Shown here piece after piece: positions 5,480 through 18,374 of a DNA stretch of 37,501 nt. The notes under the pieces are model-generated. The model was not told the DNA's origin, did no database searches, and saw only the letters and a list, made by a program, of their open reading frames with translations. Both the position numbers and the translations under genes were made by a program. Position 1 is the stretch's first letter. Each line of letters begins with the position of its first letter. The stretch is from Promethearchaeota archaeon (lineage in GTDB: Archaea; Asgardarchaeota; Lokiarchaeia; Sigyniarchaeales; SOKP01), in the NCBI GenBank assembly GCA_011364925.1, contig RDOA01000021.1, positions 1 through 37,501 of the forward strand, written 5' to 3'.

Positions 5480-6124
5480 ATGTCATCAAATCGAAAGGTT
5501 AAAGAAGAAATCATTACGCTTCTTATAGAGCATTCTAGAATAATTTACGATGTTACTAGTGATATGGGCGTATATTACTCCAGTTGGGCAGAAGATTTTG
5601 AATCTAACAAAGAAAATCTAGAAAAGAAAAAAACTAAAATGCAAATATCGGAAGAAGAAGCTGACGAGTTAAAAATTAGGCTAATAAAAAACTTTTCAGA
5701 GGCAGAGGCTTTTAACATGGGGGCTTATGTGAACTTAGTTCTAAGAATGGATGTCATCCTTAATTATCCCCTTGAGTTTGTCGATATGTTGACTAATATA
5801 AAAATTAAAGGCAAAAACGCAAAGGAAATTAAGAAGAGGTATCACAAATTATTGAACCAAGTTTTAGAAATGGTTGACATTTTAAAGACTACTATAAAAA
5901 ACTTAAGAGATAATCCAGATGTCGTTTTTGAAAATACTACAACAATTCATGAACTGGAATCCGAGATCGACAAAACCTACAGGCAATTTCTCGAATTTAT
6001 TTACTCGAATGTTGAAGATATAAGAGTTTTATTAAGGATTAGAGATAGTATAGTTCTTTTAGAGCAGATGGCTGACCGTGTACATGATATTGCAGATGTT
6101 ATGAGAGTTTTATTGTATCAGTGA
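5480..6124 (+). CDS. DUF47/PhoU-like helical protein
   Basis: A 214-residue all-helical protein with the pattern of the DUF47 (TIGR00153, PhoU-like) family: a first helix with LLIEHSRIIYDVT, a long charged hairpin, an EAEAFNMGAYVNLVLRMD segment around residues 75-92 and a C-terminal IRDSIVLLEQMADRVHDIADVM helix (about 190-208). PhoU-like bundles carry acidic patches that can bind metal, and often modulate phosphate carriers. No Pit-type phosphate permease gene is next to it; the neighbours are a divergent VIT1-like gene upstream and the ATPase operon 163 bp downstream. The ATG start is preceded by no obvious Shine-Dalgarno site. Regulatory function in phosphate uptake is a family-based guess. 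Confidence 0.7.
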   Translation: MSSNRKVKEEIITLLIEHSRIIYDVTSDMGVYYSSWAEDFESNKENLEKKKTKMQISEEEADELKIRLIKNFSEAEAFNMGAYVNLVLRMDVILNYPLEFVDMLTNIKIKGKNAKEIKKRYHKLLNQVLEMVDILKTTIKNLRDNPDVVFENTTTIHELESEIDKTYRQFLEFIYSNVEDIRVLLRIRDSIVLLEQMADRVHDIADVMRVLLYQ

Positions 6125-6287: not shown

Positions 6288-6650
6288 ATGAATGGAAAAA
6301 AAAAATTTTATATATTACTCGGAGTTTTCCAGTTAGTACTTATAGCAATTGTATTTCTAAGCGTCGATGGCGTGGTTACATTTGTAGCAGCACAAACAAC
6401 CAGTTTTGATTATTTTGATTCTGGAACATCAGCAGCTCTGGCGATCGCAGCGTCAATAGCTCTTGCTGCGTCAGTAATAGGTAGTGGCATTGCTTTAAGA
6501 ACAGTTGGAACTGCAGCTATATCTTCCTTATCCGAGAGAGAAGAAAGTTTTTTCAAAGCATTCCTAGTTGTTGCATTATGTGAAGCTTTAGCTGTATACG
6601 GTTTGATTGTTGCAATCCTATTTTGGACAAAAATTCCTAACCCGATTTAA
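6288..6650 (+). CDS. atpK: A/V-type ATP synthase proteolipid subunit K (c-ring)
   Basis: A 120-residue proteolipid that forms the ion-carrying rotor ring. Residues 8-36 form a hydrophobic N-terminal segment ending in a VAAQ-like signal-peptidase site, so a cleaved signal peptide is likely. The mature part is one hairpin: TM1 is the Ala/Gly-rich stretch about 46-72 with GSGIA, then a polar loop with SEREESF, then TM2 (about 88-113). The single ion-binding carboxylate is Glu99 in VALCEALAVYG. The residues that would mark a Na+ site cannot be judged with confidence. It is the first gene of the operon, unlike the common archaeal order in which H, I and K precede E. Subunit C follows. Confidence 0.93.
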   Translation: MNGKKKFYILLGVFQLVLIAIVFLSVDGVVTFVAAQTTSFDYFDSGTSAALAIAASIALAASVIGSGIALRTVGTAAISSLSEREESFFKAFLVVALCEALAVYGLIVAILFWTKIPNPI

Positions 6651-6700: not shown

Positions 6701-7747
6701 ATTATTCCATCTTATGCGTATACATACATCAAAATAAATTTTTTAAAAAATTTAATAATTGATGATGCTACCTTAAGAAATCTTGAGACAATAAATGATA
6801 TCTATTTTTTTATAGAATCTATAAAGAGGTATTATCCTAATATAGAAATAAAAAATTACACAATAGAGGAACTAGAAGGAGCTTTAATTAATAATTATAT
6901 ACTCGTAGTGGGTAAAATTATCCTCTTTTCTCCCCTGAATATGAGAAGTTTTTTAAAGAAGTACTTAATGCAATTTGAAATTCAAAATCTCAAAACAATA
7001 ATTATTAGTTTAATAATAGGGCGGAATAAAGTTGAAACGAGAAAAGACATTAATTTTCTAGCAGAGGAATATTTAGACAACACAGAATTTATTGAAGATG
7101 CGCTTAAGGCTACTTCATTAGAGGAAATACAACTTTTAATGAAAAAAACACCATACAGAATACCAATAAGAGAAGGTCTTCTTTATTTAAAAGAAAAAAA
7201 GGAAGTTTTCGTCTTAGAAGCCTTTTTAGACCAATTATACTATAAGCAACTTCAATCGCAAACTCAAAATCTAACTAAAAAAGAAAAGATAATGATTTCA
7301 TTATTTGTAAGGTATAAAACAGAAATATACAATTTAAATGTGATTTATAGGGGGATCAGAAACAATATTGAGAGATCATTACTAAGACAATTTTTGGTCC
7401 ATAATTATTTATTCTTAGATGAAGGAAGAATTGAATATTTGTTAAACTTAACTAATCCAGATGATTTTGTTCTTACGATAGTAGCATTTCTTAAAGAGGC
7501 TAAAGACGCAAAACCACTTTTCTTACAACATAAAATCAATCAGGACCAAATAATAAGATCTATAGAGGAATTTTATATTACCTATTATTTTAAAAAATTT
7601 AAGATTGAAATTGGTGATATACCATACTACACTATTTCCAAAATATTGGAAGTATTGATTAAAAAAGAAAAAGAAATTAGATTTGAAATTTTACCAAATA
7701 TTATAAGAATCATTCATAAAAAGTTTAAAGTATTGGAAAAGTTGTAG
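6701..7747 (+). CDS. atpC: A/V-type ATP synthase subunit C, apparently with a non-AUG start
   Basis: Central-stalk adaptor that couples the D/F shaft to the K ring. The helical protein has family landmarks such as the segment PYRIPIREGLLYLKEKKEVF followed by EAFLDQLYYKQL, and LKKYLMQFEIQNLKTIII. The first GTG in frame is at 6908 and would remove about 70 residues, but the frame is open back to 6668 and encodes PSYAYTYIKINFLKNLII, which matches the conserved N-terminal YxYxxxRI-type segment of subunit C. No ATG, GTG or TTG exists in that stretch. ATT at 6701 (or 6704) is the best fitting start, giving 348 residues, close to family length. ACG at 6692 has better spacing from the AGGTGAT at 6679. 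A frameshift joining the TTG at 6688 is the other possibility. Confidence 0.82.
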   Translation: MIPSYAYTYIKINFLKNLIIDDATLRNLETINDIYFFIESIKRYYPNIEIKNYTIEELEGALINNYILVVGKIILFSPLNMRSFLKKYLMQFEIQNLKTIIISLIIGRNKVETRKDINFLAEEYLDNTEFIEDALKATSLEEIQLLMKKTPYRIPIREGLLYLKEKKEVFVLEAFLDQLYYKQLQSQTQNLTKKEKIMISLFVRYKTEIYNLNVIYRGIRNNIERSLLRQFLVHNYLFLDEGRIEYLLNLTNPDDFVLTIVAFLKEAKDAKPLFLQHKINQDQIIRSIEEFYITYYFKKFKIEIGDIPYYTISKILEVLIKKEKEIRFEILPNIIRIIHKKFKVLEKL

Positions 7748-7786: not shown

Positions 7787-8098
7787 ATGAAAATTTTTGA
7801 ATGGGTTGAAGAGATAGAAGGAATTTATGAAGATCTAGTTGATAAAACTAGAAATGAAAGTTTAAAAGAGATACAAAAGGAAAGAAATATTCAAGATAAA
7901 TTGTTAGAAGAAACTACTCGGAAGAATCAAGAAATTATTAAAGAAGCCTTAAATACAGTCTCTAAAATACTTAGTGAAGAATCAGCTAAATTTGAAGAAT
8001 TATTAACGAATTTAAACAATAACATCGAGAAATATTATTACGATAATAGAAATGAATTAATTAATACAATGTTCAAGGAATTGGGATTTGATTTTTAA
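7787..8098 (+). CDS. atpH: A/V-type ATP synthase subunit H (peripheral stalk)
   Basis: A 103-residue, highly charged, continuously helical protein with heptad spacing along its whole length, as expected for the small peripheral-stalk subunit (called H in archaea, G in eukaryotes) that pairs with subunit E in a right-handed coiled coil. Family assignment relies on size, composition and operon position between C and F; there is little sequence signature. The ATG is preceded by GGAG eight bases upstream. Its last base of TAA and the following ATG of subunit F overlap, so translation is coupled. Confidence 0.75.
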   Translation: MKIFEWVEEIEGIYEDLVDKTRNESLKEIQKERNIQDKLLEETTRKNQEIIKEALNTVSKILSEESAKFEELLTNLNNNIEKYYYDNRNELINTMFKELGFDF

Positions 8099-8415
8099 TG
8101 CCAGAAGAAAAGATACATATTATTGGTCAAGAAGAAATAGTTACTCTTTTTGGACTTTTAGGAATTGAAGGGACTATAGTTAAACATGATGAGGATTTCA
8201 TGAAAGTTTTTGAAGATTTAACAATGAAACCATCAATTGCGATGATCATTATTAATATGGATCTAACAGATGATCTCTTTGAATTTATATTAGATTTTAA
8301 AACAAATAATAAAATTCCGTTTGTATATGTATTGCCTGACATCTTCCAACAAGATATCGTAAAACATGATAAGATTTATGATATGATTTATGATCTAATA
8401 CAAGAACTTACCTAG
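8098..8415 (+). CDS. atpF: A/V-type ATP synthase subunit F (central stalk)
   Basis: A 105-residue CheY-like alpha/beta protein that binds subunit D in the rotor shaft. It opens with the family pattern IHIIGQEEIVTLFGLLGIEG, has the mid-protein hydrophobic strand IAMIIINMDL and a later strand IPFVYVLPD, then a C-terminal helix that reaches into the head. Length is typical. Its ATG overlaps the stop of subunit H by one base, and the gene for subunit E begins 16 bases after its stop. Confidence 0.88.
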   Translation: MPEEKIHIIGQEEIVTLFGLLGIEGTIVKHDEDFMKVFEDLTMKPSIAMIIINMDLTDDLFEFILDFKTNNKIPFVYVLPDIFQQDIVKHDKIYDMIYDLIQELT

Positions 8416-8431: not shown

Positions 8432-9154
8432 ATTAGCGAAGAAGATGAAGTTAAGAAGCGGTTTGGAGAATTAGGTTTATACTTAGTTAGACAAGCTGAT
8501 AAAGAGATAAAGAAGATTAACCAGCAGACTCTTTTTCAGTTGGCAGAAATTAAAAGAAAAAATAAAGAGAGAATTTCAGAAAGTTCTATAAAAATGAAAC
8601 AGAACTTTGATGAGACTTACAATAATTTATTGAATAATTTTCTTTCCTCATCTCTTTTGAAAATTAAAGAAGCTATATTAAAAACTAAAAATAAATTAAT
8701 ATCAGATTTCATCTCAGCATTAACAAATCTAATAAACGACAAAATCAAAAAGAATTATTCGGGTTATATTGATTTTTTATTAAAAATCTTAGAAAGTACT
8801 AAAAAGATTATTGATAAACCACCAGAAATTAGAATTACATTTAATTCAAAAGATTATGGCTACTTTAGTGAAAATATGAATAAGATAGAAAAAATCCTCA
8901 AGAACAAAGTAAAGTTGATCAAATCAGAAACTGAATTTACTGGAGGATTTTTATGTGTTGTAGCCACTGGAAATATTTCCTACAATTATACAATTGAAAA
9001 TCAATTAAAAAGAAATACTACTCTTATAGAAATTAGTTTTTCAAAAATATTTTCAGATTTTGAACCAGATGTGAAAAATCTTGAAAATAAATATATTCAT
9101 TTTATTCAGAATCAAAAATTAGCTATCGATGAATATTTAAAGCATTATGAATGA
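8432..9154 (+). CDS. atpE: A/V-type ATP synthase subunit E (peripheral stalk), apparently with an ATT start
   Basis: Peripheral-stalk subunit that pairs with H and holds the A3B3 head. Residues up to about 95 form a Lys/Glu-rich coiled coil; the C-terminal part forms the alpha/beta head contacting B, with GGFLCVVATGNISYNYTIEN resembling the conserved GGxxxxxxxGxIxxxNT motif. The first conventional start, TTG at 8540, gives 204 residues, has no Shine-Dalgarno site and begins inside the coiled coil. The frame is open upstream through RQADKEIKKINQQT to ATT 8432, just after GAGATGAT. This gives 240 residues. The next upstream in-frame stop is at 8426. The end overlaps the ATG of subunit A by 8 bases. 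Confidence 0.82.
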   Translation: MSEEDEVKKRFGELGLYLVRQADKEIKKINQQTLFQLAEIKRKNKERISESSIKMKQNFDETYNNLLNNFLSSSLLKIKEAILKTKNKLISDFISALTNLINDKIKKNYSGYIDFLLKILESTKKIIDKPPEIRITFNSKDYGYFSENMNKIEKILKNKVKLIKSETEFTGGFLCVVATGNISYNYTIENQLKRNTTLIEISFSKIFSDFEPDVKNLENKYIHFIQNQKLAIDEYLKHYE

Positions 9155-10976
9155 AGTTCAAAGAAAAAAACAGTTTGGGTTCGTATCATCCATTAATGGT
9201 TCACTAATAGAGATAAAAGGGTTAGAAAATCAAGTTCGACTTAGCGATCTCGTTAGAGTGAATAATATATTAGGTGAAGTTATCCAAATTTATTCTGATC
9301 ATGTAATAGCTCAATTATTTGAGAATACTAATAATTTAAAATTAAATCAAAAAGTTACAAGTTTACAAGAACCATTATCTATGGAGCTTGGCCCTGGATT
9401 ATTGGGCACAATTTTCGATGGTATTCAAAGACCTTTAGAAGCAACTCTCTTACAATCAACAACGGGTGGATTTTTAGAAAGAGGGGCGGATTTACCCTCA
9501 TTATCGCGAACGAAAAAATGGTTGTTTAAACCATTAAAAAAGGTAGATGATTCTGTGAATACTGGTCATGTAATTGGTTTTGTCCAAGAAACTCCATTAA
9601 TTAAACATAAAATCTTGGTACCTGTCGGAGTTTCTGGAACACTAACCTATATCGCAGAAGAAGGGGAATATACTATTGTTGATGAACTTTATCGCGTAAA
9701 AAGTGGTTCAAACGAAAAAACTTTTAATATGTTTCAAAAGTGGCCAATAACTAAAAATAGACCTTACAAAAGTAGAAGTTATCCGCACGAACCTTTAATT
9801 ACAGGAATAAGGACAATAGATTTATTGTTTCCTATAGTGAAAGGCGGTACAGTTGCTGTTCCGGGGGGTTTTGGAACTGGGAAGACTGTAATTCAGCAAT
9901 CCTTAGCAAAATGGTGCGACGCGGATGTAATTGTTTTTGTAGGCTGCGGCGAGCGAGGAAATGAAATTGCTGATGTTTTAAAGCAATTTACTGAAATTAT
10001 CGATCCTAAAAGTGGGCGCCCATTACTGGAACGAATTGTTTTAATAGCAAACACTTCAAACATGCCGGTGTCTGCTCGTGAAGCTAGCATTTTTTCAGGA
10101 GTGACAATTGGAGAGTATTATAGAGATATGGGATATGATGTTGCAGTATTAGCTGACAGTACTTCACGATGGGCTGAATCCTTAAGAGAAATCTCTGGTT
10201 TATTGGAAGAAATGCCAGCAGAAGAAGGTTATCCTGCCTATTTACCGTCTAAGATTTCCAGTTTTTATGAGAGAGCGGGAGTTGTGAATATTTATAGTGA
10301 TGAAGATTCATCTAACTTTGGGTCTTTAACAATAATAGGTTCAGTTTCACCTCCCTCTGGAGATTTCAGTGAACCTGTCACTTCAACTACCAAACGCTTT
10401 GTCCAAGCTTTTTGGGCATTAGATGCAAATTTGGCTTATTCTAAGCATTATCCCGCAATAAATTGGCTCAAATCTTACTCTAAATATCCCGATTTCATAT
10501 CAGATTGGTGGTATGAAAGAGATGTTTATTGGCCGGAGATTGATATAGATTGGAATGAATGCAGAAAAGAAATCAACAATATTCTATCTCAAGAAAATGA
10601 ATTAAAAAATGTTACCCAATTAGTTGGAGAAGAAAACTTACCTGAAGATCAACAATTCATTCTTTTTATCTCAAAGTTGATTAGAAATAGTTTTTTAATC
10701 CAAAATGCGTTTGATCCAATTGATTGTTTTACAGATATTAAAAAATTAATAGAATTCACAAAAATAATTCTTTTATTATATCACGAAGGACAACAACTTA
10801 TAGCTCAAGGTTATTTGATAGATGATATTAAAGATATAAAGGTTGTTGATTACATACTGAGAATTGGACAATCTGTTCCTAACGATCAGTTAGCGGAAAT
10901 AGAACAATTAAGGAAGGATTTATCTTATGAAATTGAATCGCTAAAATTAATCCACGGTGCTTTAAAGAAAAAATGA
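9147..10976 (+). CDS. atpA: A/V-type ATP synthase catalytic subunit A (A1)
   Basis: Catalytic nucleotide-binding subunit of the A3B3 head, 609 residues, close to the family length. After the beta-barrel and the non-homologous insert it has the Walker A motif GGFGTGKT (240-247, Lys246), the catalytic-glutamate motif GCGERGNE (Glu269, Arg270), [26 protein letters not shown] and [13 protein letters not shown]. All residues known to bind or hydrolyse ATP in Thermus and Enterococcus V1 are present. The only mild departure is GGFGT where most relatives have GPFGS. ATG overlaps the end of subunit E by 8 bases, and its TGA overlaps the B start as ATGA. This is the copy expected to work in the rotary enzyme; a divergent second copy lies at 15928. 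Confidence 0.97.
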
Positions 10977-12364
10977 GTGTGATCTATAGAAAAATTAAGC
11001 AAATTATTGGACCGTTACTGTTTTTAGAAAACAAACACGATGTACAATACGGTGAAATCGTCAAAATTCGTTCTGTTGACGGTTCAGAACGCACAGGACA
11101 AGTAGTCAAGATGAATGAAGATATGATAACAATTGAGGTGTTTGAAGATACATCTGGACTCTCTTCAGAAAATGCCTCTATAACCTTTACTGAGGACTCA
11201 TTTAAAATCAAAATTTCTAGTGATATGTTTGGAAGGGTATTCAATTCTTTAGGAAAGCCAATTGATATTAATACAAAACAGGAATTAGACACAGAATTAT
11301 TAACAGAAGTAGATCGAGATATAAATGGTTTACCGATCAATCCCTTTGCACGAGATTATCCCTCTGAAGTTATCCAAACAGGAATTTCAGTGATCGATGG
11401 ACTTTTTACATTAATCAGGGGCCAAAAACTCCCTATTTTTAGCGGTCAAGGCCTACCTCATAATCTTTTAGCGGCTCAAATTGTTACTCAAGCAAAAGTA
11501 CTAACCGAAGAACCTTTCTTAATCATTTTTTGCGGCATAGGAATTATTCAAGATGAAGCTATTTTTTTCATGAAAAGGTTCCAAGAAAGTGGAAATATCC
11601 AAAATATTATATCTTTCATTAACTTCGCTGACGATCCAATTATGGAAAGATTAATCATTCCACGCGTAGCTCTTACAACTGCAGAATATTTTGCTTTTGA
11701 AAAAGACATGCATGTTCTTGTTATTCTGATTGATATGACAAATTATGCAGAAGCTCTTAGAGAATTAAGTTCAGCAAAGGAAGAAATTCCTAGTAGAAAA
11801 GGCTATCCAGGGTATTTATACACTGACTTTGCCTCTATCTATGAAAGAACAGGCAGAATTAAAGGTAAAAAGGGAACAATTACGCAAATACCAATTCTCA
11901 CAATGCCAAACGATGATATCTCTCATCCTATACCCGATACTACCGGATATATCACAGAGGGCCAACTAGTTCTTAATAGAAACTTAGATAAGACAGGTAT
12001 ATATCCTCCGTTCGAAGTATTAGCTTCAATTTCACGTCTTATGAAAGACGCCATAGGTAAAAACACTACAAGGGAAGATCATGCTGATGTTAGTTCACAA
12101 TTGCTTTCATCCTACTCGGCATCTCTTGAGACTAGAGATCTCATATCGATTGTAGGAGAAGATGGTTTAAATTATAATCAAAAAGCTTTATTAAGATTTG
12201 GAAATGAATTTGAAAGGAGTTTCTTAAATCAAGGAGATAAAGAAGAAAGAGATATTAATAAGACTTTAGATATTGCATGGAAAGCATTATCTTCCATACC
12301 TCGAAACCAGTTATTTAGAATACATCATGAATTTCTTGATAAATATTACATTGGAGGTGTGTAA
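10973..12364 (+). CDS. atpB: A/V-type ATP synthase regulatory subunit B
   Basis: Non-catalytic partner of A in the hexameric head, 463 residues, normal length. The degenerate P-loop of B subunits is present as SGQGLPHN (157-164), followed by RGYP-like [29 protein letters not shown] and [14 protein letters not shown]. The arginine finger that reaches into the A active site corresponds to Arg355 in ASISRLM. The gene starts with ATG overlapping the A stop (ATGA) and ends with TAA at 12362-12364. Subunit D follows in the same reading frame, with no ATG, GTG or TTG near its true N-terminus. Confidence 0.97.
12353..12359 (+). promoter_or_regulatory. Shine-Dalgarno GGAGGTG inside the end of atpB, ahead of subunit D
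   Basis: GGAGGTG is one of the strongest Shine-Dalgarno matches in the window. It lies 5 bases before TTA 12365 and 11 bases before ATT 12371, both in the frame of subunit D. The first ATG in frame is 50 bases away. Confidence 0.6.
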
Positions 12365-12370
12365 TTACCG

Positions 12371-13003
12371 ATTAGTTTTAGAGAGGTAAAACCTACCAAG
12401 ACCAACTTAATGAGCCTAACTAAGAAATTAAATTTTGCTGAAAAGGGTGAAAACTTTCTAAAATTTAAATTAGAGCAAATTATAATAGAAGTTAAACAAA
12501 ATTGGAAGAATTATGTTTCGCATCGCGAAAAATTTATTGAACTATATAAAGACACGATGATTAAACTAAATAATACATACAAAGATATGGGAAAAAGAAA
12601 TTACATATTAATAAGTAAGTTAAGTAGCATTCAATTTACGCCTAAAATAAATGTAAGGTACAGTAAGAAAATTGGCACCTTAATACCCGTTATAGACTAT
12701 GAATTGATAAGAGAGGAATTTCTTCCTGCTTATTCTTTTGAAAACACAAGTTATTATCTGGATGACCTAATAGTTGTTTTAATAGAATTTTTTGAGAAAC
12801 TCATTAATTTGGCTATGTACGAGGATATTATGCTGAATTTAGCTAAAAATTACAAAAAGATAAATCGCAGGATACTTGGTTTGAAGAATGTAATCATTCC
12901 ACAATTAGTTTATGACATTAAGAAAATTAAAGATATTTTGGAAGAAAATGAAAGAGAAAATTATGTTCGATTAAAAAATACAAAAGATTTGATTAATAGA
13001 TAA
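12371..13003 (+). CDS. atpD: A/V-type ATP synthase subunit D (rotor shaft), apparently with an ATT start
   Basis: Central shaft of the rotor, 210 residues if started at ATT 12371. Subunit D proteins begin with a short leader and the signature VxPTRxxLxxLxxxLxxAxxG. Here EVKPTKTNL is encoded upstream of the first ATG (12410), and the downstream part reads MSLTKKLNFAEKGENFLKFK. Starting at the ATG would delete half of the signature. Between the B stop and 12410 there is no ATG, GTG or TTG; codons are TTA, CCG, ATT, AGT and onward. The two long terminal helices that form the coiled-coil shaft and the central Pro-Val-Ile-containing segment are present. It follows B in the same frame, seven bases after its stop. 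Confidence 0.87.
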   Translation: MSFREVKPTKTNLMSLTKKLNFAEKGENFLKFKLEQIIIEVKQNWKNYVSHREKFIELYKDTMIKLNNTYKDMGKRNYILISKLSSIQFTPKINVRYSKKIGTLIPVIDYELIREEFLPAYSFENTSYYLDDLIVVLIEFFEKLINLAMYEDIMLNLAKNYKKINRRILGLKNVIIPQLVYDIKKIKDILEENERENYVRLKNTKDLINR

Positions 13004-13025: not shown

Positions 13026-15326
13026 GTGGCTAAAAAAAATGTTATGGTACTTTTTAAAGTAAGTTTGAGTCTTAAATATAAGGATATGCTTCTACAGCAC
13101 CTTTCCCAATTAAAACAAGTACATATTAAGCCAAAGACAGAAAAAAGCGGTAGCTATGAAATGGATAAAGAGCTGTTTGAAAGAATTAAAAATTTAAGCC
13201 AAAATGTAGACAACTTATATAAAGACCTTAATATTACTGAATCTGATTTCCAAAAATTATCGTTTGCAGAAAATAACAGACCAAAATTTAAGGCAAAAGA
13301 TATAAACGACTTAATTAACCAATTATCAAGCGAAATTAATTATTTTTCAAATCGGATTAACGAATTAAAAAGATATAAATCTTTAATTGAAGTTGAATTA
13401 GATAAAATAAATAACATCCATGGTAGCTACTTATTTTTAGAGAAATACAATTTAACTCGAGACAAATTAATGAAATTCAAGCATTTAGAATTTAAAGCAT
13501 TCACTACTTTTTCAAAAAACTTAGAAAATATAGAAATAGTTTTTGATTTTTCAAACTTTCCTAATTTCTTATATTATGATTTTTTAAGTGACGATAGATT
13601 AGCATTTTTCATAATATTTCCAAAAGATTTAGAGGCGGAATTTAAAGAGAGAATACGCTTAATACACGCTGAAGAGGTACCAATTTTAAAAAAATACTTA
13701 CTTTCAGATGGAATTAATTTTCCACGTATTGCAAAAGAAATTAAATATATTATATCCTCCTTAAATAAGAATCAGAGGGAGTTTGAACGGTTAAGAGACG
13801 ATAACCTCCTCCTGTTTGCGGCAGCTCACGAGATTATTCAAAACTTAGAGGAATATAATTGGGCATCTTATCAATTTGAAGAGTTAACATCAAGTCAATT
13901 GAGTCTAAGTTTTTACGTTCTTAAACAGAATAGTAAAGCTGTCCATCAAGGTTTAATTGATGAATTTCAAGATAAGATAAATATTGAATCTGTTGAGGTT
14001 GTAAAAAATAAAGCGGTAAAATTAGATTCAGAAAAACTATCAACGCTTCCTGTTAAAGACTCAAAGAAAGCTAAATTAAAAGAAGAAATTGAAGATAAAA
14101 AAGAACTAAAAGATGATTTGAGAGCTTCCGCACCAACAATCATGAAGAATTTTATCTTATTTAGACCGTTTGAAACAATAACAAAAATGTATGGAATTCC
14201 TTCCTATTCTGAGATTGATCCTACCCCTATCATAGCATTTACGTTTCCACTTTTATTTGGGATAATGTTTGGAGATATTGGGCATGGTATTATTTTAATA
14301 ATATGTGGATTATTGGGGGTTGTTGTATACCGAAAAAAGAAAAGTAGAGACTTTATAAATTTTTGCTGGATTATTGCTTATTGTGGTGTCGTTGCAATTA
14401 TATTTGGAACTTTATATAGTGAATTTTTTGGAATGCATGAAATTAAATTATTTAATATAGTATTCCTAGAACTACCAACGATTAACATTAAGATAGTACT
14501 TCCGTTTTTTAATATTACGATAGTAAATATCACTTTACATAATCCTCTTGGAAATATTCTGTCAGTATTTAAGTTCACAGTTCTTATTGGAGTGTTTCAC
14601 CTTAATCTAGGTTGGTTTATCCAATTTATGAATTATTGGAAACAAAAAAAGAAATACTTAGGTTTCACTGATTCTATGATTAAAATATTATTATTAATAG
14701 GAGGGACGATTTTAATATTTGTTTATGGTTTTGATATAAATTCTTGGTTTGGACCGCCTTATCCTATTTTATTAGTTATAATACCAGGAATATTATTAAT
14801 CATTTTAAAACCTATTGGTAAAGCATTACATCTCTCTTATCTAAAGAAGGAATCAGTAGGGTCGCTTCTAGGTGAAGGAACAATGGAAACTTTTGAGACT
14901 TTCTTGTCGATTTTGAGTAATGTAGCTTCTTATATTAGGTTGTTAGCGTTAGCTTTAGCCCACATTTCATTACTATTAGCAATTACAGCTATGTCAAACC
15001 TTATTCAAGGTGAAAGCTTAGTAAACCAAATAGTGTCATATATCGGTTTAGTTTTTGGCAATATTATCGTAATTTTACTTGAAGGATTACTTGTGTTTAT
15101 CAATGCGATTAGGTTGCATTTTTACGAATTTTTCTTCAAATTTTATCAAGGAACCGGAGTGGACTACATCCCGTTTTATTTAAGCGATAAATATTCAAAT
15201 GTCATTTTTGAAGTTTCCAAAGCCAAGGATATTATATCCGAAGAGATAGATAAAGAAATCGAATCAAAGAAAGGCTATCAAGCTATTTTAGAAGCGCAAA
15301 AGTATATCTCTGGAAAATATTTGTAG
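13026..15326 (+). CDS. atpI: A/V-type ATP synthase subunit I (a subunit, membrane stator)
   Basis: Membrane stator half-channel subunit, 766 residues. The N-terminal 390 or so residues form the elongated cytoplasmic domain with two antiparallel coiled-coil arms that bind the peripheral stalks. The C-terminal half has seven or eight membrane segments, starting with the conserved IIAFTFPLLFGIMFGDIGHG. The essential arginine that faces the ring glutamate corresponds to Arg638 in ASYIRLLALALAH, followed by GLLVFINAIRLHFYEFFFKF. The start is GTG at 13026, five bases after GTGAT. A Lys/Glu-rich linker (about 335-365) before the first TM is somewhat long. It follows D by 22 bp. Confidence 0.95.
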   Translation: MAKKNVMVLFKVSLSLKYKDMLLQHLSQLKQVHIKPKTEKSGSYEMDKELFERIKNLSQNVDNLYKDLNITESDFQKLSFAENNRPKFKAKDINDLINQLSSEINYFSNRINELKRYKSLIEVELDKINNIHGSYLFLEKYNLTRDKLMKFKHLEFKAFTTFSKNLENIEIVFDFSNFPNFLYYDFLSDDRLAFFIIFPKDLEAEFKERIRLIHAEEVPILKKYLLSDGINFPRIAKEIKYIISSLNKNQREFERLRDDNLLLFAAAHEIIQNLEEYNWASYQFEELTSSQLSLSFYVLKQNSKAVHQGLIDEFQDKINIESVEVVKNKAVKLDSEKLSTLPVKDSKKAKLKEEIEDKKELKDDLRASAPTIMKNFILFRPFETITKMYGIPSYSEIDPTPIIAFTFPLLFGIMFGDIGHGIILIICGLLGVVVYRKKKSRDFINFCWIIAYCGVVAIIFGTLYSEFFGMHEIKLFNIVFLELPTINIKIVLPFFNITIVNITLHNPLGNILSVFKFTVLIGVFHLNLGWFIQFMNYWKQKKKYLGFTDSMIKILLLIGGTILIFVYGFDINSWFGPPYPILLVIIPGILLIILKPIGKALHLSYLKKESVGSLLGEGTMETFETFLSILSNVASYIRLLALALAHISLLLAITAMSNLIQGESLVNQIVSYIGLVFGNIIVILLEGLLVFINAIRLHFYEFFFKFYQGTGVDYIPFYLSDKYSNVIFEVSKAKDIISEEIDKEIESKKGYQAILEAQKYISGKYL

Positions 15327-15362: not shown

Positions 15363-15887
15363 ATGAAAGACGAAGATGTTAAAGAAATTCCAATGGAAAA
15401 AAAGAAATTTAGGGTGCTCCCCCTTTTAATTGGTTTTATTATAGCTATACTTGTTCTCTTTATTATTATGCTAATTTTTGAAATCAACCCATTTATAATC
15501 GTTATAACACTTGTTTTTGTATCTTTATTATTTGTAGGATACATCTTAAGGCGTAGAAAACAGAAATCACTCTATTCGCAATTATATCCAGACAAAAACC
15601 AAGAGATGATTCAACGTCCACAGAGAAAATTTGAATTAACAATAAAGCCCGAAAAAGAACCTTTAGAAAAGCAATTTAGGGAAGTGAACTTAGATTACGA
15701 ATATCACAAATCTATTATCAACAAATGTGAAAATTGCGGGATGACTATAACAGGTTATCAAAAAACTTGTCCCATGTGTGGTAAAGCAATCGAGACGAAA
15801 GGAGTTATCACAAAATGCAAAAATTGTGGAATGACTATTCCCAGATCAGCAAGAAGGTGTCCTATTTGTGGAGCTCGTGTAACATAA
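15363..15887 (+). CDS. Two-TM membrane protein with tandem C-terminal zinc ribbons
   Basis: A 174-residue protein not recognised as any ATPase subunit. Residues 1-16 are charged, 17-38 and 43-61 are two membrane segments, then Arg-Arg-Arg-Lys marks a cytoplasmic exit. The C-terminus carries two zinc ribbons, CxxC-x10-CxxC: Cys122/125/136/139 and Cys152/155/166/169, each with the sequence ENCGMTI or KNCGMTI and CPMCG or CPICG. The two ribbons are near-duplicates. It lies 36 bp after subunit I and 40 bp before the second A subunit, same strand, with AAGGAT six bases before the ATG, so it probably belongs to the operon transcript. A role in assembly or in holding the second A subunit at the membrane is speculative; it may be unrelated to the ATPase. 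Confidence 0.8.
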   Translation: MKDEDVKEIPMEKKKFRVLPLLIGFIIAILVLFIIMLIFEINPFIIVITLVFVSLLFVGYILRRRKQKSLYSQLYPDKNQEMIQRPQRKFELTIKPEKEPLEKQFREVNLDYEYHKSIINKCENCGMTITGYQKTCPMCGKAIETKGVITKCKNCGMTIPRSARRCPICGARVT

Positions 15888-15927: not shown

Positions 15928-17748
15928 ATGGTTATCAAGGAAAAAGAGTCAGTAGCAACAGGATTTATATCTGCAGTTAATGGTTCATTAATTGAAATTA
16001 AAGGTTTGGAAAACCGTGTTCGATTAGATGATTTATTAAAAATTAGTAACTATAATTTTTTATGCTCAGTAATCCAAATTTACTCAGATAGAATTATAGC
16101 CCAATGTTTTGAAAACACAGAGAGTATAAGACTAAAAGAAAGAGTTATTACACTTCATCAACCTTTGTCAATGGAATTAGCTCCTGGTTTATTAACAAAT
16201 GTATTTGATGGGATCCAAAGACCGTTAGATATAACCTTTGAATACTTTCAAGAAGGTAGGTTAAATAAAGGTCTTGAGTTTCCCTCCTTATCACGAACGA
16301 AAAAATGGCATTTTGTTCCAACAAGGAAAATTAAAGAATTTGTAGCCAGTGGAGATGAAATTGGAATCGTTCAAGAAACAACTTTTCTCGAACATAAAAT
16401 TATGGTCCCTCCCGGGGAATCTGGAATTCTTTCTCACCTCATTGAAGAAGGAGATTACACTATTACTGATGAGATTTATACGCTTCATAGTAATAATGAA
16501 GTAAAATCTTATTGTATGCTACAGAAATGGCCAATCACGAAAAGAAAGCCTTTTAGTGAAAAAGTGCAACCTCACGAACCATTAATAACTGGTATAAGGA
16601 TAATCGATTTATTATTTCCTGTTGCAAAGGGTGGTACTTTTGCGGTACCGGGTGGATTTGGAACTGGTAAAACGATTATACAACAAAACCTTGCTAAATA
16701 CTGCGATGCAGATTTAATCGTATTCATAGGTTGTGGAGAACCAGGCAACGAAATTGCGAATGCACTAAAGCAATTTAAAGAAACAATTGATCCGAATTCT
16801 GGACATTCTTTATTGGAGAGAATTGTCCTTATCGTAAATACTTCAAATATGCCTGTTTCAGCTCGAGAGTCCAGCCTTTTTTCGGGTATAACTATAGCAG
16901 AGTACTACAGAGACATGGGATATAATGTTGCAGTTATAGCAGACAGTATTTCACGATGGGCAGAATCTCTAAGAGAAATCTCAGGGCTTTTAGAGGAAAT
17001 GCCGGCTGAAGAAGGGTATCCTGCTTATTTACCATCAAAATTATCAAGTTTTTATGAACGTGCAGGAATCTTTACAACTTTTGGGCGCGATTCTAACGGT
17101 AAAAGAAGAACTGGGTCAATTACTATTATCGGTTCGATATCTCCTCCTGCAGGAGATTTTAGTGAGCCAGTCACATCAGCGACAAAACGGGTTGTTCAAG
17201 GAATTTGGGCTCTAGACCCTAAGTTAGCATATCTTAAGCATTATCCCGCTATTAGCTGGATAAACTCATATTCCAATTACCCTGAATCTTTGGCAGAATG
17301 GTGGGAGAAAGTAGATAATAATTGGCTTGATATAAAACTGAGTTGGGTGGAATGTAGGAAACAAGTGAATGAAATCTTAGCAAAAGAGAATGAACTTAAA
17401 TACATAACTCAATTACTCGGAGAAAAGAATTTAGCAGAAGATCAAAAATTAGAAATTTTCGCTGCTAATTTAATAAGAAATGCTTTCTTCGTCCAAAACG
17501 CTTTTAACGAGGTGGATACTTTTACATCCAGCAGAAAAATGCTGAGTCTCATTAAAGTGATTCTTCTGCTCTATAATAAAACTAAATCGCTTATTAAGCA
17601 AGGTTCTATAATAAGTGATAGAAACTGTGAGAAAGTCCTTAACGAAGTCATGCGCATTAGTCATTATGTTCCGAACGAGGATTTTAAACCAATTGAACTA
17701 CTTAAGAATAATATCAATAACGAATCCATAAGCTTAGTTTATAAGTGA
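15928..17748 (+). CDS. Second, divergent A/V-type ATPase catalytic-type subunit A (A2)
   Basis: A 606-residue paralogue of the A subunit at 9147, alignable from end to end including the non-homologous insert. Walker A is intact (GGFGTGKT, 242-249, Lys248) and so is the catalytic glutamate (Glu271), but the motif reads GCGEPGNE: the Arg after the glutamate, which contacts the nucleotide phosphate in V1 structures, is Pro272. [13 protein letters not shown] replaces [24 protein letters not shown] and [13 protein letters not shown] are retained. There is no second B, D or other subunit nearby, and no Shine-Dalgarno site in front of the ATG. Hence it either exchanges with A1 in the same head, with altered catalysis, or does something separate. 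The open frame and conservation argue against a pseudogene. Confidence 0.93.
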   Translation: MVIKEKESVATGFISAVNGSLIEIKGLENRVRLDDLLKISNYNFLCSVIQIYSDRIIAQCFENTESIRLKERVITLHQPLSMELAPGLLTNVFDGIQRPLDITFEYFQEGRLNKGLEFPSLSRTKKWHFVPTRKIKEFVASGDEIGIVQETTFLEHKIMVPPGESGILSHLIEEGDYTITDEIYTLHSNNEVKSYCMLQKWPITKRKPFSEKVQPHEPLITGIRIIDLLFPVAKGGTFAVPGGFGTGKTIIQQNLAKYCDADLIVFIGCGEPGNEIANALKQFKETIDPNSGHSLLERIVLIVNTSNMPVSARESSLFSGITIAEYYRDMGYNVAVIADSISRWAESLREISGLLEEMPAEEGYPAYLPSKLSSFYERAGIFTTFGRDSNGKRRTGSITIIGSISPPAGDFSEPVTSATKRVVQGIWALDPKLAYLKHYPAISWINSYSNYPESLAEWWEKVDNNWLDIKLSWVECRKQVNEILAKENELKYITQLLGEKNLAEDQKLEIFAANLIRNAFFVQNAFNEVDTFTSSRKMLSLIKVILLLYNKTKSLIKQGSIISDRNCEKVLNEVMRISHYVPNEDFKPIELLKNNINNESISLVYK

Positions 17749-17771: not shown

Positions 17772-18374
17772 TTATGGTTTAAACCATTCAAAAAAGTAAT
17801 AACTTAATGTCAAAGGATTTGCAATTACGAACTTTTTCCTTACTGATGTAGCTAAACGACCTGCGCGAACCATGTCAATAGCACTTATTTTTGCGTCATG
17901 CGGTAACACATGAGCGATAAATGGGGAGTGCTCTAATCCTGGTCCTTTTCTATAAACTACAAAATCAGCTCCAAACTTTAGGCCAGGTCTAGGAACGTAC
18001 CCTTTTTCTCTCAAATCTTGATAAATTACGAATTTTTCTTCGAATTTATGGTGTATAGATTTACTTATCTCGTAGAATTCATCGTATGAGTAAAATTTAT
18101 CAAGCTTAGGGTCGTAAATAGTGATTTTATCGTTTTTTAATAAATATGATGCTTCAATTAACGATAATTCGGAGGGTTTCGAAAAATATTCTAATCGAGG
18201 TTTGCTTATCCCTAGAGGAGACCCAAAAAATTTCTGTTTAATGTAGAGATAAGACGCATAAATAGGATTAAAGACAATTACGCGATTATTAATAAATTTC
18301 GTTGGAATCTTTTCAGGGATATCCTTTTCTTCTATATCATCGATTGAAATTTGAGATCCTTTTTCTTCAGTCAT
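17772..18374 (-). CDS. endA: tRNA-splicing endonuclease EndA
   Basis: Cuts bulge-helix-bulge junctions to remove introns from archaeal pre-tRNA. The 200-residue length and single catalytic domain correspond to the homotetrameric (alpha4) type. The C-terminal nuclease fold carries the triad Tyr141 (ADFVVY), His149 (GPGLEHSPF) and a lysine of SVRKKFVIA (Lys180 or Lys181). The region FSYDEF-like YDEFYEIS and RPGLKFGADF are typical. The N-terminal 20 residues are acidic and variable. It converges with A2 and is divergent from the MEMO-family gene at 18485, from which it is separated by 110 bp. Confidence 0.95.
   Translation of the reverse strand: MTEEKGSQISIDDIEEKDIPEKIPTKFINNRVIVFNPIYASYLYIKQKFFGSPLGISKPRLEYFSKPSELSLIEASYLLKNDKITIYDPKLDKFYSYDEFYEISKSIHHKFEEKFVIYQDLREKGYVPRPGLKFGADFVVYRKGPGLEHSPFIAHVLPHDAKISAIDMVRAGRLATSVRKKFVIANPLTLSYYFFEWFKP

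Follow-up and report, generated by a model that had tools for sequence, protein, structure and literature searches.

Descriptions of rotary ATPases assign them three equivalent catalytic sites. In eukaryotic V-ATPases, isoforms of the A or B subunit are encoded by a second head-subunit gene and share their partners, and to our knowledge the known isoforms retain the catalytic residues. The B subunit of the A/V-type enzymes and the α subunit of the F-type enzymes are anciently diverged paralogues of the catalytic subunit; no longer catalytic themselves, they take alternate places with it in the ring (PMC10656485).

A conserved Arg of the catalytic subunit contacts the phosphates of the nucleotide. 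In the T. thermophilus V/A-ATPase, A/R258 bonds the triphosphate upon closure of the site (PMC8904598), and in E. hirae ATP is held in the bindable site by R262 of the A subunit (PMC6371843). The βR182Q replacement in E. coli F1 lowers the ATPase activity from 42 to 0.020 units, i.e., an approximately 2000-fold loss, and ATP synthesis, binding of Pi and formation of the transition state are all lost; with βR182K the activity is near 0.25 (PMC3268026). F1 with crippled catalytic residues still rotates, at a rate reduced by three to four orders of magnitude (PMC5380711). Together, the studies of R262, R258 and βR182 back the phosphate contact that a first-pass annotation of the present locus had assigned to this Arg. 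Here, we describe an operon of a Lokiarchaeal ATPase in which a second A subunit, A2, carries Pro at the corresponding position.

A second A subunit in the ATPase operon

The window, i.e., the whole stretch of 37,501 nucleotides that was analysed, comprises bases 1–37501 of a 54,302-base contig in a 100% complete assembly of 3.9 Mb and 112 contigs. The operon has the order K-C-H-F-E-A1-B-D-I-Z-A2 on the plus strand, and begins with the rotor-ring subunit K/c (6288–6650), the C/AC39 subunit (6908–7747) and a small coiled-coil protein (7787–8098) that is a probable peripheral-stalk H/G subunit by position and composition; Pfam gives no match for it, so the name H is by position alone. These are followed by the rotor subunit F (8098–8415), the peripheral-stalk subunit E (8540–9154), A1 (9147–10976), the B subunit (10973–12364), in which the arginine-finger motif SISR is retained, the rotor subunit D (12410–13003), the membrane stator subunit I/a (13026–15326), the membrane protein Z with a double zinc ribbon (15363–15887), and A2 (15928–17748) as the last co-directional gene. 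A convergent gene for a tRNA-intron endonuclease on the minus strand (17772–18374) marks the operon boundary, and in several genomes lacking A2 this gene directly adjoins Z. Z ends 40 bases before A2 and is conserved between I and A2; it belongs to the operon across the host family, both with and without A2. Upstream of K, a 214-residue protein (5480–6124), found at this position in most of the host family, has no match in Pfam or NCBIfam, and looks by eye like a PhoU/DUF47 protein.

The A2 reading frame starts with ATG and encodes 606 amino acids followed by a stop codon. Homology to A subunits extends over the full length and all domains: NCBIfam PRK04192 matches residues 10–600 with 693 bits (cut-off 470), A subunits in the PDB are matched with E values down to 2.8e-166, and A2 is 61% identical to A1 and 33% identical to B. 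Both A2 (681) and A1 (750) score below the stricter equivalog cut-off of TIGR01043 (972 bits). An AlphaFold model of A2 (13 rows) has a mean pLDDT of 52, too low for use. The host genome contains exactly three PF00006 proteins, namely A1, A2 and B, all on the contig of the window, and hence a second B is absent from the genome. This agrees with the first-pass annotation, which had noted a full-length second A at the end of the operon, no second B, and a canonical A1; the latter reads GCGERGNE and ADSTSRW. As had also been noted, A2 retains Lys248 in GGFGTGKT, a Walker A motif of the form GxxxxGK(T/S), and Glu271 in GCGEPGNE, followed by Pro272 (codon CCA, 16741–16743, plus strand) in place of Arg; the third motif reads ADSISRW, with Ile341.

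Compared with archaeal and V-type A subunits (PRK04192; PDB codes 3vr2 from E. hirae, 3a5c from T. thermophilus and 1vdz from P. horikoshii), A2 has the same length, domain order, Walker A motif, Glu and most invariant residues, but it always has Pro for the Arg of GERGNE, lacks a partner B of its own, and has a mostly reversed charge in the DELSEED-like loop. By these features, A2 is an A subunit in build that falls outside the full catalytic definition. Like B and α, it is a paralogue of the catalytic subunit with predicted loss of catalysis; unlike them, it is much younger, would have lost catalysis independently, and remains A-like with the Walker A motif and Glu kept. Since the non-catalytic B is defined by loss of Walker A and an arginine finger S-x-S-R supplied in trans, A2, judged by its Walker A motif and its 33% identity to B, is not a B subunit. 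The eukaryotic isoforms resemble A2 in being encoded by a second head-subunit gene, but in A2 the catalytic Arg is gone. Genomes with multiple A genes also occur in other Asgard genera, which have second complete A+B operons (f12); there, each A adjoins its own B and the Arg is kept in the records fetched, whereas A2 is a lone A in a genome with one B.

Residues that set A2 apart

Residue 272 is Pro in all 37 A2 sequences that cover the site, and Arg in all A1 of the host family (56/56) and all A subunits from other Asgards (35/35), while Lys248 and Glu271 are universal in the A sequences compared, including 37/37 A2. The presence of Pro272 in 37 of 37 A2 from separate assemblies excludes chance, and the use of all four Pro codons (CCT 17, CCA 12, CCG 5 and CCC 3) implies that selection acts on the amino acid. 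Pro is thus conserved among the A2 relatives, and in none of them has Arg been restored. The first-pass annotation had coupled Pro272 with Ile for Thr in ADSTSRW; this second change is present in the A2 of the window, but it is not conserved, and is rejected as a defining A2 change with Ile in only 21 of the 37 sequences (Thr in 15, Met in 1).

Other positions separate the two proteins as well. Leu317 is found in 37/37 A2, where A1 has Ile or Met; residue 422 is Val or Leu in A2, Phe in A1 and varied in other Asgards; and Asn278 is present in 32/37 A2 at a position that is invariably Asp in A1. At residue 500 the charge is reversed, from Glu in 54/56 A1 to Lys or Arg in 32/36 A2, and Lys500 is the residue in the A2 of the window. 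This residue lies in the sequence LLGEKNLAED, which, by our own alignment, we take to be the counterpart of the rotor-contact loop ILGMDELSEED of F1 β. Of 198 columns that are invariant in A1, 165 (83%) are kept in A2, across all domains, and the C-terminal region is the part of A2 that is least conserved relative to A1. The alignment of A sequences contains no new fixed basic residue close to GEPGNE in A2.

Distribution and history of A2

A search of 228 genomes from the phylum of the host, with approximately 100 loci fetched and their gene order drawn, located second A copies in the host family. A motif search with TGYGGNGARCCNGGNAAYGAR gave 37 of the 228 genomes, with one match each, all in the host family and distributed over six genera. 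In a scan of 84,980 species for the exact string GCGEPGNE, which ACGEPGNE-type variants (three genomes) escape, 52 stretches were found, 32 of which are A-type ATPase frames; every one of these bears the title Lokiarchaeota or Lokiarchaeia and is metagenome-assembled, with none from cultured strains. The remaining 20 pattern matches are short or unrelated frames, and GEPGNE in other phyla was rejected. With 37 genomes carrying A2, an artefact specific to one assembly, or a gene limited to it, was likewise rejected.

At 35 loci, Z is immediately followed by A2, in most cases with a spacing of 16–58 bases. The adjacency that the first-pass annotation had proposed to check applies to these loci but not to G104, where A2 (L088) is on a contig other than that of the operon, so operon linkage is not strictly required; this A2 is more diverged (54% identity to its own A1) and still reads GEPGNE. 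In G123, a single contig carries A1-B-D at 2.19 Mb (L063) and I-Z-A2 at 3.05 Mb (L064), i.e., a split operon or a misassembly. Two ATPase operons, with A2 detected in only one of them, are found in G148 (L051, L052), which may be a mixed bin. In G143, placed in the host genus, the sole A/B pair is a distant one (L058; ~44–50%), as if from another lineage. No PF00006 protein is found in G116, G109, G157, G152, G110, G159 and G161, some of which are 92–98% complete, and the head is absent or unassembled there. In five genes (L094, L095, L096, L097 and L112), A1 contains an insertion of ~540 residues, read as an intein, between the P-loop Lys and Thr; four of these are in the host family, all four in genomes without A2.

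Several relatives lack A2. On a tree of B, I, D and C, its presence requires three changes, and it is retained in 32/32 genomes of the main clade, with no loss within this clade; A2-bearing G099, which shares its genus with two A2-less genomes, had too short a sequence for the tree and would add one change. In G113 and G117, the 1.1–1.2 kb between Z and the endonuclease gene were considered as a possible relic of A2; tblastn finds no A2 remnant there, and the translation reads as an inositol-phosphatase-like gene on the opposite strand.

Pairwise dN/dS values (Nei-Gojobori) are ~0.06–0.25 for A2 and ~0.06–0.19 for A1 in the same genome pairs, and ~0.09–0.19 for A2 in pairs with low dS, except one pair at dS 0.07 (0.28); with many dS values near saturation, they are safe to an order of magnitude only. 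Relaxed selection with dN/dS near 1, which the first-pass annotation had named as a possible refutation, is not what is observed, and neither are the other two refuting conditions it had named, an A2 confined to this assembly and a restored Arg; with open frames and dN/dS ~0.1, A2 as a pseudogene was rejected. In a tree of 112 A proteins, the A2 sequences are almost united, with two A1 of one genus placed inside with weak support. The likelihood is higher when the A2 rows are held together, and the AU test favours one A2 clade, without significance; a single origin of A2 is thus not rejected. In the two genomes concerned (L060 in G096 and L062 in G095), A1 and A2 are 81% identical, compared with 54–70% elsewhere, and residues 272, 317, 422, 436, 500 and 568 still differ between A1 and A2 in the usual way. 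This fits a partial homogenisation, possibly by gene conversion, with selection on the diagnostic sites; alternatively, the pair may have diverged slowly. At the level of sequence, the comparisons show A2 to be an A duplicate from one Lokiarchaea family, retained by purifying selection and with the change of Arg272 to Pro fixed.

Possible roles of A2 in the motor

With Walker A and the catalytic Glu kept, A2 probably still binds Mg-ATP. In the absence of the Arg, which contacts the γ-phosphate and is needed to bind Pi, A2 would hydrolyse or synthesize ATP at a small fraction of the A1 rate, and by homology with the E. coli, E. hirae and T. thermophilus enzymes we consider reduced catalysis very probable. 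Having no B of its own and sharing the operon, A2 most likely fills an A position beside A1 in the A3B3 head; from the operon position and the 165 invariant columns retained, we regard this placement as slightly favoured. Mixed heads would then carry one or more tight-binding, non-turning sites, and such sites could slow or gate rotation; a role of A2 as a brake or gating subunit is a tentative proposal that we hold below even odds. The exchange of Glu500 for Lys or Arg suggests that the rotor coupling of A2 may be retuned through the altered DELSEED-like loop. For the account as a whole, i.e., a duplicated A2 with weakened catalysis, placed beside A1 in the head and slowing or gating rotation, we estimate a probability of roughly 0.5.

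Partner subunits were inspected for residues co-evolving with A2. No B column cleanly separates A2-bearing from A2-less genomes, and B thus gives no co-evolution signal. In F, an acidic C-terminus correlates with the presence of A2 (31 vs 14 sequences); however, the A2-bearing G105, G133, G148, G118 and G119 carry Lys there or close by, and the correlation is explained by lineage. Co-evolution of A2 with residues of B, D, C, E, F, H and I was therefore rejected. The silence of B counts against a place of A2 in the head, as do the existence of relatives that lack A2 and the G104 gene outside the operon. It would fit a function of A2 outside the ring, where A2 might assist assembly or hold the place of B/A1, sequester B or DF as a regulator, or form a separate homo-oligomer or A2/B oligomer that serves a different purpose. 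The location of the gene away from the operon in G104 and the weak conservation of the C-terminal region point the same way, but the gene otherwise sits within the ATPase operon, and the A1-invariant residues of the N-terminal barrel, nucleotide-binding and C-terminal domains are mostly retained, beyond the need of a pure chaperone, which makes a role outside the ring rather unlikely.

It is also conceivable that A2 is a competent isoform in which Pro272 is compensated elsewhere, and that full A2/B heads serve other conditions. Walker A, Glu271, all other catalytic residues and the B arginine finger are retained, and dN/dS resembles that of A1; against this, replacement of the Arg by Lys or Gln already cripples E. 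coli F1 (PMC3268026), and no new fixed basic residue has arisen beside the motif, so that we consider compensation improbable. The absence of A2 from some relatives could indicate that the duplicate is decaying or of very recent date, or an artefact of assembly; with 37 assemblies, open frames, a fixed Pro, low dN/dS and conserved synteny, this is the least credible explanation, and we give it almost no weight. Among these readings, a weakened A2 in a head shared with A1 is the one we prefer.

A stronger form of the shared head is an obligately asymmetric Lokiarchaeal motor: a dedicated, catalytically dead but nucleotide-binding A2 with its own rotor-contact loop would occupy one of the three catalytic positions, or a number of them that is regulated. 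We put this forward as a possible but doubtful extension; if true, A2 would represent a third class of head subunit besides the catalytic and non-catalytic ones. We found no description of an A-subunit paralogue in Asgard archaea in the openly accessible literature searched, and a rotary ATPase with this kind of A pair is not known to us. A2 would be a form of regulation absent from that literature, and its hosts are archaea with kinship to the ancestors of eukaryotes. A paralogue with a disabled site, kept for long beside a normal A, would be a natural experiment on the number of sites that the motor needs, and the genes of a single operon make this question approachable in vitro.
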